Below are positions 44,361-52,600 of a DNA stretch of 64,000 nt, one piece after another. How positions within the stretch are numbered: the stretch's first letter is position 1; each line of letters starts with the position of its first letter. The notes under the pieces were generated by a model. It was not told where the DNA came from. It searched no databases and worked only from the letters and a program-made list of their open reading frames with translations. This DNA comes from Hydrogenovibrio sp. JE_KL2. Lineage in GTDB: Bacteria > Pseudomonadota > Gammaproteobacteria > Thiomicrospirales > Thiomicrospiraceae. Position numbers and translations under genes: made by a program. Where the stretch lies: NCBI RefSeq assembly GCF_009296185.1, contig NZ_WBJR01000005.1, positions 1 to 64,000 of the forward strand, given 5' to 3'.

Positions 44361-45317
44361 ATGTCGCTGGAAACGATTTTGTATCCCCATATCGAACCTT
44401 ATGTACAACATAGTCTTCAAGTAGATCAAACCCATACTTTGTATGTGGAAGAATGCGGCAATCCCGAGGGCATTCCAGTGTTGTTTGTGCATGGGGGACC
44501 CGGGGGTGGCTATAGTCCAACCCATCGACGTTTTTTTAACTCGGAAGGTTATCGTATTGTGTTGTTCGATCAACGAGGCTGCGGGAAGTCACGTCCACAC
44601 GCTTGTTTGACCAACAACACGACTGCGCACTTGATTGAAGACATTGAAAAAATTCGGCGTCATTTGAATATCGAGCAATGGGTGCTTTTTGGGGGATCTT
44701 GGGGGGCAACACTTAGTTTGCTTTACGCTCAGGCTTATCCCGAGCGGGTTTTGGGGATGGTTTTACGAGGGATTTTTTTGTGTCGCAATGAGGATGTCCA
44801 GTGGTTTTACCAGCAGGGCGCGGATCGCTTTTTTCCGGATTATTGGCAGGATTTTATCGCACCGGTGGCGGAAGAAGATCGCCATGACATGGTTTCCGCT
44901 TATTATGATTTGCTGACCAGTGGAGATGAAGTAGCTCGTATGCGGGCGGCTGAAGCTTGGTCTGTCTGGGAAGGAAGGACCTCCACCTTGCAACCGGATG
45001 AAGACTTGGTTGCGCACTTTGGTAGTCCTTATCACGCGTTGGCAATGGCACGCATCGAGTGTCATTATTTCAAAAACCATTCCTTTATCGAACCCAATCA
45101 AATTTTGGACAATGCGCACTATATTGAGCAGATTCCGACAACCATTATTCATGGTCATTACGACATGGTTTGCCCAGTCAATCAGGCTTATGCGTTAGCT
45201 TCCAAACTGCCGAAGGCAACACTGAAAATTTGTCATCATTCGGGGCATTCAGCAATGGAGCTGGAAATTGCGCAACACTTGGTGCAGGCGACAGACGATA
45301 TGCTGAATCAGGTTTGA
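44361..45317 (+). CDS. pip: Proline iminopeptidase
   Basis: This is an alpha/beta hydrolase that removes N-terminal proline from peptides. The 318-residue length matches family S33. The oxyanion motif VHGGPGGGYSP, the nucleophile elbow GGSWGATLS, the acid in HGHYDMVCP and the histidine in HHSGHSAME form the triad, in order. It is followed 16 bases later by dtd, which also handles amino-acid quality control. Confidence 0.96.
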   Translation: MSLETILYPHIEPYVQHSLQVDQTHTLYVEECGNPEGIPVLFVHGGPGGGYSPTHRRFFNSEGYRIVLFDQRGCGKSRPHACLTNNTTAHLIEDIEKIRRHLNIEQWVLFGGSWGATLSLLYAQAYPERVLGMVLRGIFLCRNEDVQWFYQQGADRFFPDYWQDFIAPVAEEDRHDMVSAYYDLLTSGDEVARMRAAEAWSVWEGRTSTLQPDEDLVAHFGSPYHALAMARIECHYFKNHSFIEPNQILDNAHYIEQIPTTIIHGHYDMVCPVNQAYALASKLPKATLKICHHSGHSAMELEIAQHLVQATDDMLNQV

Positions 45318-45333
45318 TGAGGAGGTTGAGCAC

Positions 45334-45771
45334 GTGATTTGCATTTTACAAAGAGTGTCGGAAGCTAGCGTGAAGGTGGAAGGGGAAATCGTGGGAAAAA
45401 TCGGACAAGGACTGATGGTGTTGTGCGGTTTTCAACCAGAAGATGACTCACAATCTCTGGAGAAAATGGCAAATAAACTCCTTAAGTTTCGGGTGTTTTC
45501 TGACGATGAAGACAAGATGAATTTGAATATTCAGCAAATCAATGGCCAATTTCTGTTGGTACCTCAGTTCACTTTAGCGGCCGATACCGCTAAGGGCAAT
45601 CGTCCAAGTTTTCACACCAGCGCACCACCGGATACCGCAAAACAGCTTTTTGAGGAGTTTGTCGCATTGATGAATGCGGTTTATCAAGACTGCCAGACAG
45701 GGGTTTTCGGTGCGGATATGAAGGTGAGTCTGATCAACGATGGCCCGGTCACTTTCCAGCTAACGACTTAG
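45334..45771 (+). CDS. dtd: D-aminoacyl-tRNA deacylase
   Basis: Dtd removes D-amino acids wrongly loaded on tRNA. The 145-residue protein carries the family motifs SQ/PQFTLAADTAKGNRPSF and NDGPVTFQ, the latter holding the Gly-cisPro pair that reads chirality. The start is GTG 45334 after GAGGAGG, a strong ribosome binding site. It is probably in one transcript with pip. Confidence 0.96.
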   Translation: MICILQRVSEASVKVEGEIVGKIGQGLMVLCGFQPEDDSQSLEKMANKLLKFRVFSDDEDKMNLNIQQINGQFLLVPQFTLAADTAKGNRPSFHTSAPPDTAKQLFEEFVALMNAVYQDCQTGVFGADMKVSLINDGPVTFQLTT

Positions 45772-45816: not shown

Positions 45817-45904
45817 CTTACCGATACCTAGGGCTGTGAGCGTTTTATTTTGTCGTAAAACCCGTTAAACTGTATGCTTAATTTTCCTGCATTTGGAGCC
45901 TAGG

Positions 45905-47980
45905 TTGGTATTAGCACATCAAGATATGTCTACAGCAGTTGTCCTGGTCGTGGATGATGATCCAACAACGCTGATAACAACTCAGAAAGTTCTTGAGAAA
46001 TCCGGGTATCAAGTTCTCACCGCATCCAATGGGCGCGAGGCCATCTCCATTTATATGGAAGAAAAACCAAACTTAATCATCATGGATGTGATGATGCCGG
46101 TGATGGATGGTTATGCAGCGACTACCGCCATCCGAAGTTATACTCCTAGTCAAGCCGTTCCGATTCTGATGCTAACCTCTCAGGATGATATTGAATCCAT
46201 TGAACAGGCTTTTAATGCCGGAGCGACCGACTTCTTAATTAAGCCGATTAATTGGACGCTATTGGGGCAGCGCGTCCGTTATGCGCTTAAATCGTCTCTG
46301 ACGGAAGACCAGTTAAGAAAGACACAAGCGCAATTGCTCTATGCGCAAAAGCTTGCCAAGTTGGGCTATTGGGAGTGGGATGTAAAGGAAGATCGAATCG
46401 CCGCCTCTTCTTCAGCATTCGAAATTTTCGGAATTCCAAATCAAGCCGACGTCACGTTGGATCAATTTATTGCGAATGTCGCTCCTAAAGACATTCCGCT
46501 TATTCAGCAAGCTATTGCCGATGCCAGCCAAGGGTATCATGACATTCAAGTCAGTTTCAGGATCATGCATCATGACCAGTCCTTGACGCATATTGATTGT
46601 TTGGCTGAAGCCATTTACGAAGAAGATGAGTTGGTTAAGTTGACAGGTTCCGTTCAGGATATTTCGCGCTTGCACAAAGCCGAAACCCTGATTGATTACC
46701 AGTCAAACCATGATGTATTGACCGACTTGCCGAATCGTTCGTTCTTCAATCGTCGCATTACCCATTTCCTTGAATCCAATAATTACCAAGCGATGAGTGC
46801 TGTGGTGATTTTGGATATCGACCGCTTCAAGAAGATTAATGACACCCTTGGGCAAGAAAATGGGGATGCCTTGTTACGAAACGTCGCTTTGCGACTGAAG
46901 CGCGTCACCCGAGAAGAAGATGATATCGCCCGTTTGGGAAGCGACGAGTTCGCTATTTTGATTCGTTATGCGAAAGATGTCGCTGAATTGCATTTGTCCG
47001 TAAACCGTATTTTCCAAGACTTATCGAAAGTATTTGTCATTAACGGTCGCGAGCATTTTATTACCTTTTCGGTTGGGGTGTGTGTTGTTGAGCAAGGCGC
47101 AGAATCCGCAAACGAATTGATTGCCAATGCCAACGTCGCTCGAACCGAGGCCAAGTCCTCTGGCGGAAACCAAGCGATTTTCTATCAGTCGGACATGAAC
47201 GCCGAGGCTAGAACGCAGTTGATGCTGGAGACCGACTTGAGAAAGGCCTTGGAAAAAGGCGAAATCGAAGTTTACTACCAGCCACAGGTTGATGCAGAGA
47301 CTCTGGAAATTACCGGTGCTGAAGCCTTGGCGAGATGGAGGCACCCAACAGAAGGTTATGTGTCTCCCGGTATCTTTATCCCGCTGGCGGAGAGCACCGG
47401 GCTGATTGTCGAAATTGGTCGTCATGTGCTCAAGACAGCGGTGAAAGATGCAGAAACTTGGCAAGGTGCCGGATTTGACTGTGTTCATGTCGGCGTCAAC
47501 TTGTCTGGACGTCAATTCACGCACAGTGATTTGATGAAAGACATTCAAGCAGTGCTTCAGGAAACCACTTTGCCGGCTGGTTGTATTGATCTTGAGATTA
47601 CCGAAAGCTTGGCGATGAGCAATGCAGACCAGAATATCTCGATTTTGAAAGGGCTGAAAGCCATGGGCGTGTCGTTGTCGATTGATGACTTTGGGACAGG
47701 GTATTCTTCATTGGCTTACCTGCAAAGTTTCCCGATCGACACCATCAAGGTTGACCGTTCCTTTATTTTGAACTTGGCAACGGTAGAAGGCCAAGCGATT
47801 GTTAAGACGATTTTGGCGATGGCCGAATCATTGCAACTCAGTGTTGTGGTGGAAGGGGTTGAAGAGGATTTTCAGGTGGAGTTTTTACAAGGGAAACACT
47901 GCCAAACCTTCCAGGGCTTCAAGTTTGGTAAGCCGATGAATGCCGCAGCTTTTTTGAAATTGTTACACTCAAAACAATAG
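45905..47980 (+). CDS. REC-PAS-GGDEF-EAL response regulator
   Basis: The 691-residue protein has a receiver domain (VLVVDDDPTT, phospho-acceptor Asp in LIIMDVMMPVMDGY, Lys in FLIKPINW) and a PAS-like domain (LGYWEWDVKEDRI). A GGDEF domain whose motif is changed to GSDEF follows, then a complete EAL domain (AEALARWRHP, VNLSGRQF, LEITES, IDDFGTGYSSL, IKVDRSF, VEGVE). Net c-di-GMP hydrolysis is likely, with the GGDEF part perhaps GTP-binding only. TTG 45905 follows GGAG at ideal spacing; ATG 45926 and TTG 45893 are alternatives. The gene after it encodes an Hpt protein, a natural phosphotransfer partner. Confidence 0.92.
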   Translation: MVLAHQDMSTAVVLVVDDDPTTLITTQKVLEKSGYQVLTASNGREAISIYMEEKPNLIIMDVMMPVMDGYAATTAIRSYTPSQAVPILMLTSQDDIESIEQAFNAGATDFLIKPINWTLLGQRVRYALKSSLTEDQLRKTQAQLLYAQKLAKLGYWEWDVKEDRIAASSSAFEIFGIPNQADVTLDQFIANVAPKDIPLIQQAIADASQGYHDIQVSFRIMHHDQSLTHIDCLAEAIYEEDELVKLTGSVQDISRLHKAETLIDYQSNHDVLTDLPNRSFFNRRITHFLESNNYQAMSAVVILDIDRFKKINDTLGQENGDALLRNVALRLKRVTREEDDIARLGSDEFAILIRYAKDVAELHLSVNRIFQDLSKVFVINGREHFITFSVGVCVVEQGAESANELIANANVARTEAKSSGGNQAIFYQSDMNAEARTQLMLETDLRKALEKGEIEVYYQPQVDAETLEITGAEALARWRHPTEGYVSPGIFIPLAESTGLIVEIGRHVLKTAVKDAETWQGAGFDCVHVGVNLSGRQFTHSDLMKDIQAVLQETTLPAGCIDLEITESLAMSNADQNISILKGLKAMGVSLSIDDFGTGYSSLAYLQSFPIDTIKVDRSFILNLATVEGQAIVKTILAMAESLQLSVVVEGVEEDFQVEFLQGKHCQTFQGFKFGKPMNAAAFLKLLHSKQ

Positions 47981-47989
47981 GACGTTAAG

Positions 47990-48331
47990 GTGAGCATTCT
48001 CGACAACAGTCATCTCGATATGCTGAAAGACGTTATCGGCGAAGACTTAAAAGAAATTTTAGACGTGTTTTTACAGACGGCACCGGCCGAGTTGGCGGCA
48101 ATGCAGCAGGCATTTTCCCAACAGGATGAAGTCGGATTGCGCTTGCATTCACATACGCTCAAAGGCAGTGCTGCGAATGTCGGGGCAACCGAACTGTCCT
48201 TGCAGGCCAAGAAGGTAGAAGATGCTGCAAAGGCAAATGACTTATCTTCTGTTAGTGAAGATATTCAGCAATTGGAAGAGAGCTTGCCGGCAGTTTTGCA
48301 GGCACTACAAGACTATATAAACAAAATATAA
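47990..48331 (+). CDS. Hpt domain phosphotransfer protein
   Basis: The 113-residue protein is a stand-alone histidine phosphotransfer domain with the phospho-acceptor in HSHTLKGSAANVGATELS near residue 50 and a Gly-Ser-Ala-Ala turn typical of the family. The start is GTG 47990, 9 bases after the preceding stop, so it is probably cotranslated with the REC-GGDEF-EAL gene. No sensor kinase is visible nearby; the donor must be encoded elsewhere. Confidence 0.9.
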   Translation: MSILDNSHLDMLKDVIGEDLKEILDVFLQTAPAELAAMQQAFSQQDEVGLRLHSHTLKGSAANVGATELSLQAKKVEDAAKANDLSSVSEDIQQLEESLPAVLQALQDYINKI

Positions 48332-48341
48332 GAGAAAAACT

Positions 48342-48977
48342 ATGCATTATTTGGTGACCCCAGAAGAAACTTATGCGGCCAAGACCCCGCACCATATCTT
48401 TAACCTTAATGTGATTATTACGCATCTTGCCGTTTCTCAGGTTTCGCTGGAGTTAGGGCATGGCAATCCATACTACTTTATTTTGGTGCCGTTTCTTTCT
48501 TCTATCGTGATTGCTTATTTATATTTCCACGGAAAGACCGTTGCCAAGACCAGTAGCTGGTTTGTTGCCGCCCATTGGAAGTTGGCTTGGCGACGTAGTC
48601 GAAACCTATTAATCGCCTATGGCGCAGCCCTAGCCGTTATCCTATTGTTTGGTTTGATTGGAAAGTTGTCTGGCGGCTTGATGATGAATGACTTTTCGGA
48701 TGATGGATCGTCCAGTTCGATTGTCGGAAAAGTCGGTTTGTATTTTGGTGCCTTGATTGTCTTTGTGACCGTGTTGATCAATTTTTTGCAAACAGGTATT
48801 TCGGTTTATGACGCAGGTAGAGGAATCATTGACCCTAAAATCGAGAAGTATCTGCCAAGGGATGAAAACTCGAATGAAGAGCTTGGTGAAGGCGATGATG
48901 AAGTCGCACATGCCGGTCAAAAACAAATGAAAAGCACTACCGCTGAAGTAGATGAGAAAACCGGAGAAAAAGCATGA
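48342..48977 (+). CDS. Unknown membrane protein, three predicted spans
   Basis: No family is recognised. The 211-residue protein has hydrophobic segments at about 45-65 (YFILVPFLSSIVIAYLYF), 85-107 (LIAYGAALAVILLFGLIG) and 130-152 (LYFGALIVFVTVLINFL), and an acidic, disordered C-terminal tail (DENSNEELGEGDDEVAHAG). It starts 10 bases after the Hpt gene and its end overlaps the next gene by 4 bases as ATGA. The placement suggests a membrane partner of the signalling pair, but that is inference. Confidence 0.75.
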   Translation: MHYLVTPEETYAAKTPHHIFNLNVIITHLAVSQVSLELGHGNPYYFILVPFLSSIVIAYLYFHGKTVAKTSSWFVAAHWKLAWRRSRNLLIAYGAALAVILLFGLIGKLSGGLMMNDFSDDGSSSSIVGKVGLYFGALIVFVTVLINFLQTGISVYDAGRGIIDPKIEKYLPRDENSNEELGEGDDEVAHAGQKQMKSTTAEVDEKTGEKA

Positions 48978-49618
48978 GCGGAACATCCAAACCGGTTTTG
49001 CCTATTTATATTTGGGTGCTGTTGGCAGCGATTGGTCTGACGGCACTTTTGTTGCTGTTGGTGCCAAGCCAAGAAGAAGTGAGTCCTGAGCTGCTGCCAT
49101 GGAATAGCCAATACACGAAGGATAACCACCTTCAAGCCTTGGGTCTGACGCTGGAAGCTTCAACGGTGGCCGATGCCGAGAAGTTGTTCGGTAAAGACAT
49201 TGAAGTGCAGATATTCTCTAAGAAAGATGAGAGTAATAAAACGGCAGAGATTTACTTCCCATTTATTTCCATTGCAGCGATTACCGGTTCTTTAACCGCG
49301 ACATTGGATGTGCCTGAAGAGACGTTGAACGTCATGTATTCCCGAGGGGTGAAAACCACGGTGAATTCCTTGGGGAATCGTCAGGTCACGCCGGTGAGTA
49401 GTGATGCCAAAGCTTTACTTGAGTACAAAATCAAAAATTTGACGCTGGTTCCGAAAAAACAGTTGACCGAAAGAGGGATTAAGTTACGTTTTGGTGAGCC
49501 GGATCGAGTGACTAAGAATCATGACGGCTCGACCCGTTGGGTTTATGTAAACAAAGGCGTGGAAATTATTCTGAACCCCGATGGCCCAGATGCTTTGCAG
49601 TACTATCGCGTCCAGTGA
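48974..49618 (+). CDS. Unknown membrane-anchored periplasmic protein
   Basis: One N-terminal helix ([19 protein letters not shown], about 12-30) anchors a soluble domain of about 180 residues, probably periplasmic, rich in beta and helix. The ending [40 protein letters not shown] resembles small SmpA/OmlA-like folds, but I would not assign it. It is coupled to the preceding gene by ATGA overlap. It converges with moaC, the 3' ends overlapping by 16 bases. Confidence 0.72.
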
Positions 49619-50356: not shown

Positions 50357-52600
50357 CTAGAATTCAGCCCATTTATCGCCAGAGGCATTAGTTTCTTTAC
50401 TCGTTGTTTCTGACTTGTTTTCGACTTTTTTAGATCCATTTAATGTTGCAACAGTCTTTTTATGCTCAATTTTTGCCACGTTATTTTCTGAGGGTGGGGT
50501 CTCATGTTTATGGATCAATTTTGATTCTTCACCAGTGTTGAAAAATGCCATATCATTTTCTAGATTATTAGCCTGTTCACTCATACTGTCTGCGGCTGCT
50601 GCAGTTTCCTCGGCCAAAGCAGCATTTTGTTGTGTCACTTCGTCAATTTGACTGATGGCTTTATGCACTTGCTCTATACCTTCCATCTGCTGATTGGAGG
50701 CTTGGGCAATTTGCTCTATCATTTGCGTGACTTCATCAATGGATTGATCGATTCCAGATAGCACTTCACCGGACTCGGATGCGAGTGAGGTTCCTTGGTC
50801 TATACGGGTGACACTCTCGGAGATTAAAGTATTGATTTCCTTCGCGGCATCAGCTGATTTTTGTGCCAGAGAACGTACTTCTCCTGCGACTACGGCAAAA
50901 CCTCGTCCATGTTCACCAGCACGTGCAGCTTCGACAGCAGCATTTAGAGCCAACAAGTTTGTTTGGAAGGCAATGCCGTCTATCAAGGAAACAATATCAG
51001 AGATTTTATGGCTGGAATCTTGAATAGCACCCATGGCTTCGATTGTTTGTTTCATTACGGTAGAACCATTGCTGGATTGCTTTTGTACGGCATTCGCCAC
51101 TTCAGAAACATCCTTTGTAAGTTGTGAATTATTCCTAACGGTTGAAGTCATTTCTTCCATCGTGGCCGAGGTTTCTTCAATTGCGGCTGCCTGCTGTTGA
51201 ACACGTTGGCTCAAATCCATAGCACCTTGTGTAACTTCCTGAGCACCCTGTGAAACTGTGTGCGCAGCCTGATTAGCTTGCCTGATGACCTCAGCCAAGT
51301 TGCTGATCGTATTGTTGACCGTTTGTTTGAACTCATGTAGTTGACCTTTGTAATTACCACTGACGGTTTTGGTCAAGTTGCCATGTTCAACTTCCATCAG
51401 GACATTAACCGCTTCATTAACCGGTAGCACGATTCCATCAAGTATCTGGTTGACTCCAGAGATCATTTGCTTCCAATCTCCCTGAAATTGGCTGGCATCG
51501 GCACGTTTATCAAGCTCGCCATCAACTGCGGCTTGTATGAGGATGTTGGTGTCTGCAGAGATGGCTTTGAGGTTGGTTCGAACAGTTTCAATGGCTTCGT
51601 TGATAAAGGCTTTTTTGCCAGGTAATTTTTCCATATCGGCATTGAAATTCCCTTCACCAAAAGACTTGAATACAGCCATAGCTTTTTTGTTTACGGAGAT
51701 ATGGTCATCAACCATAGTGTTCACGCCACGAGCCATTTTGCGGAAGTCACCCAAGAATTTTTCTTCATTAATGTGTATGTCAATATCTCCTGCGTGGTGC
51801 TTTTGATACATTTGGTCCATATCATGCAAAAGCAATTGGACTGTTTCTTGTAAGCGTTTCATTGCGCTTAATAATAACCCTGTTTCATCAGAGGTACTAA
51901 CCTCTATAGTGCTGGATAAATTCCCTTCTGCGATCGCATTTGCGGTATTAACAGCGTTTTTTAGTTGCTTAGAAATGTTTTTAGGAATGGAATAACCAAT
52001 CCACAGTGCACCAAGCAAAATTATGGCGAGCACTGAAAAGGCAATATTTTTGAACTGATTGACCTGGTTTGCCAGTTGTTTCCGGATTTCGGCGGATTTT
52101 GATAAAGCTGCTTCGCCGGCTTTATCGAGGTTATCTCGAAGCGCAGAAAACCTAAGATCGGCATTTTTGTGTAGTTCCATGATTTCGGCTTCGCCAACTT
52201 TATCAATGGCCGTGACTAACTTATCAGATTGTTGTTTCCAGGCTTTAAAATCAGATTTAAAGGTCGACGACTTGGCGAGCACATCAGGATAATCTTGCAT
52301 TCTTGAACGATATTCTGCATAACGGTCAGAAACCTGCTGAGCATTTTCATTGCGTGACGCATTAGCTTTCTCTGCAGAACCAAGGTGAGTCACTAAATTT
52401 AGTTCTGCTAACTTTGCTTGATAAAGGTCGCGATCGGCATTTAGGGTTAATGAAATGGCTTTAACAAACTTGTCGGCTTGTAGTTCGATTGAACGTTTTT
52501 GCATGTCCAGCATTTCAGAGAAAATGAACAGTAACGCAATAATTGAGGCTGCTAAGACTAATATAGGAATTGAGGCTTTGACTCGGATAGTGTTTAACAT
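50357..52600 (-). CDS. Methyl-accepting chemotaxis protein with repeated HAMP modules
   Basis: The 747-residue protein has a membrane helix near 11-30 and a periplasmic four-helix-type sensor (about 35-185). A second membrane helix lies near 187-205. HAMP and HAMP-like segments follow (about 205-450, three similar blocks such as [40 protein letters not shown]). The signalling hairpin is present with [21 protein letters not shown] (20-residue core). The C terminus KWAEF resembles the CheR/CheB-docking pentapeptide. It should steer flagellar motility; the ligand is unknown. Confidence 0.94.

Follow-up and report, generated by a model that had tools for sequence, protein, structure and literature searches.

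A cyclic di-GMP phosphorelay gene pair probably joined to candidate cbb3 oxidase accessory genes in Hydrogenovibrio sp. JE_KL2

A phosphorelay driving a cyclic di-GMP (c-di-GMP) enzyme is probably joined, in one likely operon, to an undescribed pair of cbb3 oxidase accessory genes in the sulfur-oxidising bacterium Hydrogenovibrio sp. JE_KL2. The genes lie within the first 64,000 nucleotides of contig NZ_WBJR01000005.1 (assembly GCF_009296185.1); this whole stretch was analysed and is called the window here. Four open reading frames (ORFs) on the same strand, separated by 9, 10 and -4 bases, encode a REC-PAS-GGDEF-EAL protein (RGE), an Hpt protein (Hpt) and two membrane proteins (M1 and M2). 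In many microaerobic bacteria the cbb3 oxidase serves as the high-affinity oxidase, and how it is assembled is still under study. The observations that carry this reading are the anatomy of the locus, the co-variation of the RGE receiver with Hpt, the pairing of M1 with M2 throughout the family, the presence of CcoS in genomes that have M2, and the proximity of M2 to cco genes. A preliminary description of this DNA had proposed a single four-gene unit in which RGE and Hpt form a phosphorelay and the membrane proteins act as its sensor or output. The relay is upheld here; the role given to the membrane proteins is not.

Gene order in the family and the RGE-Hpt relay

M1 and M2 were searched in 55 genomes, counting that of the window, of which 34 belong to the same family. 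Both genes are present in 33 of the 34 family genomes and are adjacent in all 33; one genome, G020, has neither. Upstream of the pair, RGE with a receiver plus Hpt is found in 15 of the 33 genomes, including that of the window. RGE with a receiver and no Hpt precedes the pair in four, an EAL protein with neither receiver nor Hpt in six (among them L088 and the contig-cut L077), Hpt without RGE in seven, and neither gene in one. A second set of 22 loci from Hydrogenovibrio, Thiomicrorhabdus, Thiomicrospira and relatives falls into the same five classes, in order, as 9, 8, 0, 2 and 3. These are the 33 named family loci less 11 that duplicate genomes of the first set; two fragments, L163 and L164, were also left out. 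The order RGE-hpt-M1-M2, whose conservation had been suggested as a check on the four-gene unit, recurs in 24 of the 55 family loci (15/33 and 9/22). The M1 fragment L163 (72% identity over 60 residues) comes from a contig labelled Cryomorphaceae, probably a binning error.

The Hpt domain spans residues 22-104 of the 113-residue protein and carries its histidine in the motif HTLKGS; H..KGS is kept in all 22 Hpt proteins from the loci of the 33 family genomes. The phosphorylation pocket of the RGE receiver is complete, with D, D, D, T and K in the columns of the acidic pair, the phospho-acceptor Asp, the Thr and the Lys. A pocket was scored as intact if both acidic positions were D or E and the D, T and K were present, a definition made on the first set and then applied to the second. 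It is intact in 24 of 24 RGE proteins adjoining Hpt (15/15 in the first set, 9/9 in the second) and in 1 of 16 scorable RGE proteins without an adjacent Hpt (1/8 and 0/8; two further proteins could not be counted, L077 being cut at a contig end and L088 unscored). The association is strong (Fisher p 4e-10, uncorrected for shared ancestry, as are all statistics given here). Among the 15 failing receivers, four proteins have no receiver, four lack one acidic residue only and seven lack more. A midpoint-rooted tree was built from M1 plus M2 of 54 of the 55 loci (L142 has no M2 and falls outside it). The failing receivers are spread over five separate groups on this tree, of which one consists of L141 alone, so a single event of decay is unlikely.

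The genome of the window yields four Hpt matches, and the one considered here is the only free-standing one. Two of the others lie in CheA-sized frames with a kinase ATPase domain, and the third lies in a hybrid kinase. Three long frames, matched by frame length, combine a kinase and a receiver without an Hpt domain; this is a gap that a free-standing Hpt could fill, which supports a phosphorelay. No kinase gene was noticed among the genes adjoining RGE and hpt. With the receiver/Hpt co-variation and the single free-standing Hpt together, the relay first proposed for these two genes is well supported, and the two proteins look coupled.

Catalytic roles are assigned to the N, E, DD, K and E residues of EAL domains. 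RGE retains them all along with the EAL motif itself, and its cyclase motif reads GSDEF, not the canonical GGDEF. Given the retained EAL residues and this substitution, phosphodiesterase is the likelier activity of RGE, and cyclase activity is doubtful. In the proposed mechanism, hybrid histidine kinases without an Hpt domain of their own would hand phosphate from their receivers to His55 of the free-standing Hpt, which would pass it to the receiver Asp of RGE (46085). Phosphorylation of this receiver would then switch the EAL phosphodiesterase and thereby change c-di-GMP. The direction of phosphate flow, the feeding kinases and the net phosphodiesterase activity are what we infer within this scheme.

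M2 and the cbb3 oxidase

The M2 profile matched 76 of 274 sampled genomes of the class. CcoS is encoded in 75 of these 76 genomes versus 80 of the 198 genomes without M2 (Fisher p 4e-22); the CcoS count of 155 was taken at E 0.001, and 152 of these pass the family cut-off. The control, CydA of the other low-oxygen oxidase, is found in 27 of 76 genomes with M2 and 99 of 198 without it (p 0.04), slightly in the opposite direction. Enrichment of CcoS and not of CydA links M2 to the cbb3 oxidase and not to low-oxygen oxidases in general. The M1 profile, which was built with paralogues, matched 27 of the 274 genomes, and 25 of the 27 also have M2.

Outside the family, 75 M2 loci were fetched (at least 16 of the 75 span less than 9 kb), and 74 contain a profile-detectable M2 frame. 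In 22 of the 74, a ccoG, ccoH, ccoI or ccoS gene lies no more than 5.5 kb from M2. Such an 11-kb span is under 0.5% of a 3-Mb genome, which would place this proximity far from chance. A dtd gene occurs in 13 of the 74 loci and a DsbD_2-type protein in 10; at least one of cco, dtd and DsbD_2 is present in 30. The names ccoG, ccoS, FixH, P-type ATPase, ccoN, ccoO and ccoP were confirmed on examples with NCBIfam and Pfam. Of the 33 named loci within the family, 22 carry ccoS, ccoI and ccoH past M2 on the opposite strand, and most of these also have ccoG.

The membrane genes are thus found elsewhere with partners unrelated to RGE and Hpt, an outcome that the preliminary description had named as counting against its four-gene unit: some M1-M2 pairs or lone M2 genes of other families adjoin dtd, pip and typA, and some adjoin ccoG/H/I/S. 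The order dtd then M1-M2 is direct in L116, L118 and L120 and interrupted by one gene in L113, while dtd is followed by M2 alone in L094 and L095; ccoS, ccoI, ccoH or ccoG lies near dtd-M1-M2 or M2 in several of the other-family loci. Because dtd is followed by M1-M2 or M2 in these families, RGE and hpt were probably inserted later, ahead of M1. Neighbourhoods of M1 were read in 6 of 11 cases, with L117, L119, L122, L126 and L129 left out. In L230, L233 and L234, where M1 and M2 are apart, M1 directly follows ccoS. M2 therefore behaves as an accessory protein would, occurring with the cbb3 oxidase and near its genes, and M1 is tied to the oxidase through M2 and, in these three loci, through ccoS. 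The biochemical role of the pair at the oxidase is what we infer from this company.

Hpt adjoins M2 in none of the 74 outside-family loci. BLAST with 22 Hpt queries gave no match there, and a profile built from the family's Hpt proteins gave one weak match, in L234 (E 7e-4, in a 371-residue frame), about 4.4 kb from M2. M1 and M2 also persist within the family where RGE, Hpt or both are absent. The pair is therefore probably not the sensor or output of the relay, as had first been suggested.

M2 also occurs in a second class of the same phylum, which we suspect to be the Zetaproteobacteria, in 39 genomes that all belong to one family. Fetched loci from 15 of the 39 have cco genes near M2 in 12 cases (L253 and L254 by our own assignment from sequence), and in three loci ccoH, ccoI, ccoS and M2 form a single-strand run.

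Several further arrangements were observed at these loci. M2 and cco genes often have a DsbD_2 (PF13386) transmembrane protein next to them (L127:5374-6111, L241-L244, L246 and L248-L254). Two second-class loci (L242:6101-7910 and L243:5770-7573) hold two M2-type genes close together on the same strand, of which one follows ccoS and the other precedes the DsbD_2 gene, possibly a division of labour. In L245:6447-7130, M2 begins 24 bases after a gene for a Nuo-type proton-pumping subunit (Proton_antipo_M) on the same strand. Two loci of family f3, L166 and L202, have a GGDEF-EAL gene beside M2, with no receiver or Hpt in view.

Sequence and predicted structure of M1 and M2

Neither M1 nor M2 matches a family in Pfam or NCBIfam, in agreement with the preliminary description, apart from a sub-threshold DUF4605 match for M2 (Pfam, E 0.11). 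Their relatives have no Pfam family either, and neither protein matches the family models of CcoG, CcoH, CcoI or CcoS. The alignments used comprised 27 of 36 M2 proteins, 25 M1 proteins including three paralogues and, separately, 28 of 36 M1 proteins, the last set excluding two fragments and six proteins in which extension ran into a stop.

The model of M2 (predicted local distance difference test, pLDDT, 93.6) consists of one N-terminal helix followed by an alpha/beta domain that is presumably periplasmic. Foldseek found nothing for this domain in the PDB at E 0.001. By VIA-align its best fold match is YjgB of Bacillus subtilis (DUF4309, 4ygt), with Z 10.1 and a root-mean-square deviation of 3.5 over 123 residues (runner-up Z 6.6; no Foldseek match). 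The structural search suggested for the 49.0-49.6 kb region thus ranked first YjgB, which is not a recognised sensor domain. The M2 domain is 15% identical to YjgB; unlike YjgB, it has no Pfam DUF4309 match, and its N-terminal helix lies outside the matched region. The YjgB family is uncharacterised, and the shared fold shows no function for M2.

Two other candidates for M2 were rejected. Its motif had suggested a BamE/SmpA-type protein, for which there is no Pfam match; the best fold match was YjgB, which may have a related kind of tandem fold. A profile match to adiponectin (E 2.7e-6) was attributed to chance, as it falls on three stretches within a single chain of 442 residues, and two other adiponectin entries score 0.33 and 0.52.

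The M1 model (pLDDT 85.4) has four long helices. Its fold search gave no Foldseek match at E 0.001, and realignment gave only tied helical bundles at Z 9.5 or below; sequence matches in the PDB at E 0.41 and 2.6 were disregarded. Near the start of helix 1 lies the motif A..PH.....N....H, and each of its residues P16, H17, N23 and H28 is conserved in 54-56 of the 56 M1-type rows scored. By helix geometry in the model, H17 and H28 would share one face of helix 1, and they could be heme or copper ligands. A second, shorter M1-type protein that keeps PH.....N....H occurs in several genomes of the genus (L096:6661-7191, own genome C1:91666-92154, and L097, L098 and L099), with no M2 within the fetched stretch. 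In L096 and L099 its gene adjoins what looks to us like an Rrf2 regulator.

Locus organization

The ORF calls and coordinates confirm the four genes and their spacings, and Pfam bears out the REC-GGDEF-EAL and Hpt assignments while adding a PAS_3 domain (Table 1). RGE has candidate starts at TTG 45893, TTG 45905 and ATG 45926, all leading to the stop at 47980; a GGAG at 45895-45898 lies 6 bases upstream of TTG 45905, the start adopted in the preliminary description. The M1 and M2 frames share 4 bases. Because a pattern scan between the four genes found no promoter-like or terminator-like site, a single transcript is plausible.

Table 1. Features of the RGE-hpt-M1-M2 locus (positions in the window).
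Feature	Position	Strand	Basis
RGE: REC-PAS-GGDEF-EAL protein	45905-47980	+	ORF and Pfam
RGE receiver	45941-46276	+	Pfam Response_reg, E 1.9e-29
RGE receiver phospho-acceptor Asp (IIMDVMMP)	46085-46087	+	Sequence; same-column Asp in 24/24 RGE adjoining Hpt
RGE PAS	46397-46648	+	Pfam PAS_3, E 9.9e-6
RGE GGDEF-like (GSDEF)	46703-47173	+	Pfam GGDEF, E 4.6e-39
RGE EAL	47234-47935	+	Pfam EAL, E 3.1e-68
Free-standing Hpt protein, 113 aa, GTG start	47990-48331	+	Pfam Hpt, E 3e-17
Hpt phospho-accepting His55 (HTLKGS)	48152-48154	+	Sequence
M1: membrane protein, four long helices, no named family	48342-48977	+	ORF, library searches, model
M2: N-terminal membrane-type helix and alpha/beta domain, no named family	48974-49618	+	ORF, model
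pip-dtd, 5' of RGE	44361-45771	+	Names read from sequence; dtd relative named by NCBIfam

The dtd gene encodes a D-aminoacyl-tRNA deacylase, confirmed on a relative with NCBIfam; the neighbours that we take from their sequences to be pip, moaC and mcp carry our own assignments. The moaC gene lies 3' of M2 on the opposite strand and overlaps its end by 16 bases. A methyl-accepting chemotaxis-type gene (50357-52600) follows moaC here and in G003, and not in G010. A terminator after dtd was considered and rejected: an AT-rich hairpin is present, but the whole intergenic stretch folds no better than its shuffles (z -0.19).

Alternative interpretations

The reading preferred here has two modules: the relay from kinases through Hpt to RGE and, downstream, M1 and M2, which would be helpers of the cbb3 oxidase. 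Placement of the first module ahead of the second could mean either that a respiration helper is co-expressed with a signalling pathway or that an insertion simply stayed.

Several findings weigh against this reading. On the relay side, the GSDEF motif makes the net enzyme activity of RGE uncertain. At 9 of the 55 loci Hpt stands without RGE (L072-L074, L082-L085, L144 and L153). One of the genomes concerned, G015, encodes no RGE-like protein at E 1e-30, so Hpt acts, or once acted, on other targets. The RGE receiver of L068 is intact, yet its genome has no free-standing Hpt; G002 and G006 have partly decayed pockets and a free-standing Hpt elsewhere in the genome. As four of the 15 decayed receivers lack one acidic residue only, their functional loss is uncertain. 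On the oxidase side, the link from M2 to CcoS runs one way: 80 of the 155 CcoS genomes have no M2, which is accordingly not required for the cbb3 oxidase in general. In the genome of the window, ccoS is on another contig. M1 is rarer than M2 even with paralogues counted, and it adjoins M2 in 10 of the 74 outside-family loci (nine by profile, L177 by ORFs), sharing the locus but lying apart in three. No dtd, cco or DsbD_2-type gene occurs in the stretch read for 44 of the 74. The GGDEF-EAL genes of family f3 lie tail to tail with M2 (L166:4170-5474, L202:6135-7394) and might yet indicate a connection to c-di-GMP. The position of M2 behind a Nuo-type gene in L245 could point to a broader respiratory role, and none of the statistics takes shared ancestry into account.

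A more specific form of the two-module reading is tentative. In it M1 and M2 would be an undescribed cbb3 assembly module, with the PH.....N....H helix of M1 handling heme b or copper within the membrane and the YjgB-like domain of M2 holding the oxidase on its periplasmic side. In this family the RGE-Hpt relay would have been joined to the operon so that the turnover of c-di-GMP and the capacity for respiration at low oxygen are set jointly.

Somewhat less probable still, and on balance unlikely, is a broad role of M1 and M2 in respiration or the envelope (for example in complex I, cytochrome c handling or supercomplexes), with the cbb3 tie arising through microaerobic life. The L245 arrangement would fit such a role, as would the many M2 loci distant from cco genes and the DsbD_2 neighbours (10/74 outside-family loci, 12/15 second-class loci). 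The near-universal presence of CcoS in M2 genomes, the lack of a positive link to CydA and the location of M2 within ccoH-ccoI-ccoS runs argue against it.

The four genes as a single signalling unit, with M1-M2 sensing at the membrane and feeding the Hpt-RGE relay or forming its output, we consider improbable. Tight spacing and the recurrence of the order in the family agree with it, and the f3 loci have a GGDEF-EAL gene next to M2 without Hpt. M1 and M2 nevertheless remain where the relay genes are gone and have no adjacent Hpt outside the family; neither has a detected kinase or sensor domain in Pfam or NCBIfam or a Foldseek match at E 0.001. An accidental neighbourhood, in which an insertion placed RGE and hpt after dtd and ahead of M1 and none of the four genes is functionally tied to another, would accommodate the dtd-M1-M2 loci of L116, L118 and L120 and the differing upstream genes within the family. 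It is very improbable, as the strong receiver/Hpt co-variation and the 33/33 pairing of M1 and M2 speak against it.

Relation to known systems and significance

HptB of Pseudomonas aeruginosa is an Hpt protein. The portions of the literature consulted on the P. aeruginosa PvrS-PvrR/RcsC-RcsB and HptB networks, in which PvrR is an EAL-containing response regulator, describe two-component networks tied to c-di-GMP enzymes, as proposed for RGE and Hpt (PMC3842833, PMC2696094, PMC5085249). As far as those portions go, the present case differs in that a small Hpt gene adjoins the REC-PAS-GGDEF-EAL gene and the two decay together.

M1 and M2 resemble the ccoGHIS maturation genes in lying near cco genes in many genomes, with M2 in ccoH/ccoI/ccoS runs, and differ from them in matching no family in either Pfam or NCBIfam. 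Judged from passages of the report, CcoX, CcoY and CcoZ of Campylobacter jejuni offer the nearest parallel for how such proteins come to light: they are proteins of unknown function that, like M1 and M2, were noticed by their position beside cco genes and whose deletions affect oxidase activity (PMC8267372). In those passages CcoX is DUF4006, CcoY has 33 residues and CcoZ is DUF5130 (PMC8267372); unlike CcoX and CcoZ, M1 and M2 match neither DUF in Pfam, and C. jejuni was not searched with M1 or M2. No description of M1 or M2 was found in the literature, covered through titles and the starts of abstracts and, for PMC8267372, passages of text, a coverage that does not establish that none has been published.

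The co-decay of receiver and Hpt provides a partner assignment for a free-standing Hpt, which is seldom possible from gene order alone. M2 is a protein without a family that occurs in 62 of the 222 genera sampled from the class, nearly only alongside ccoS, and M1 and M2 are candidate new helpers of the low-oxygen cbb3 oxidase.

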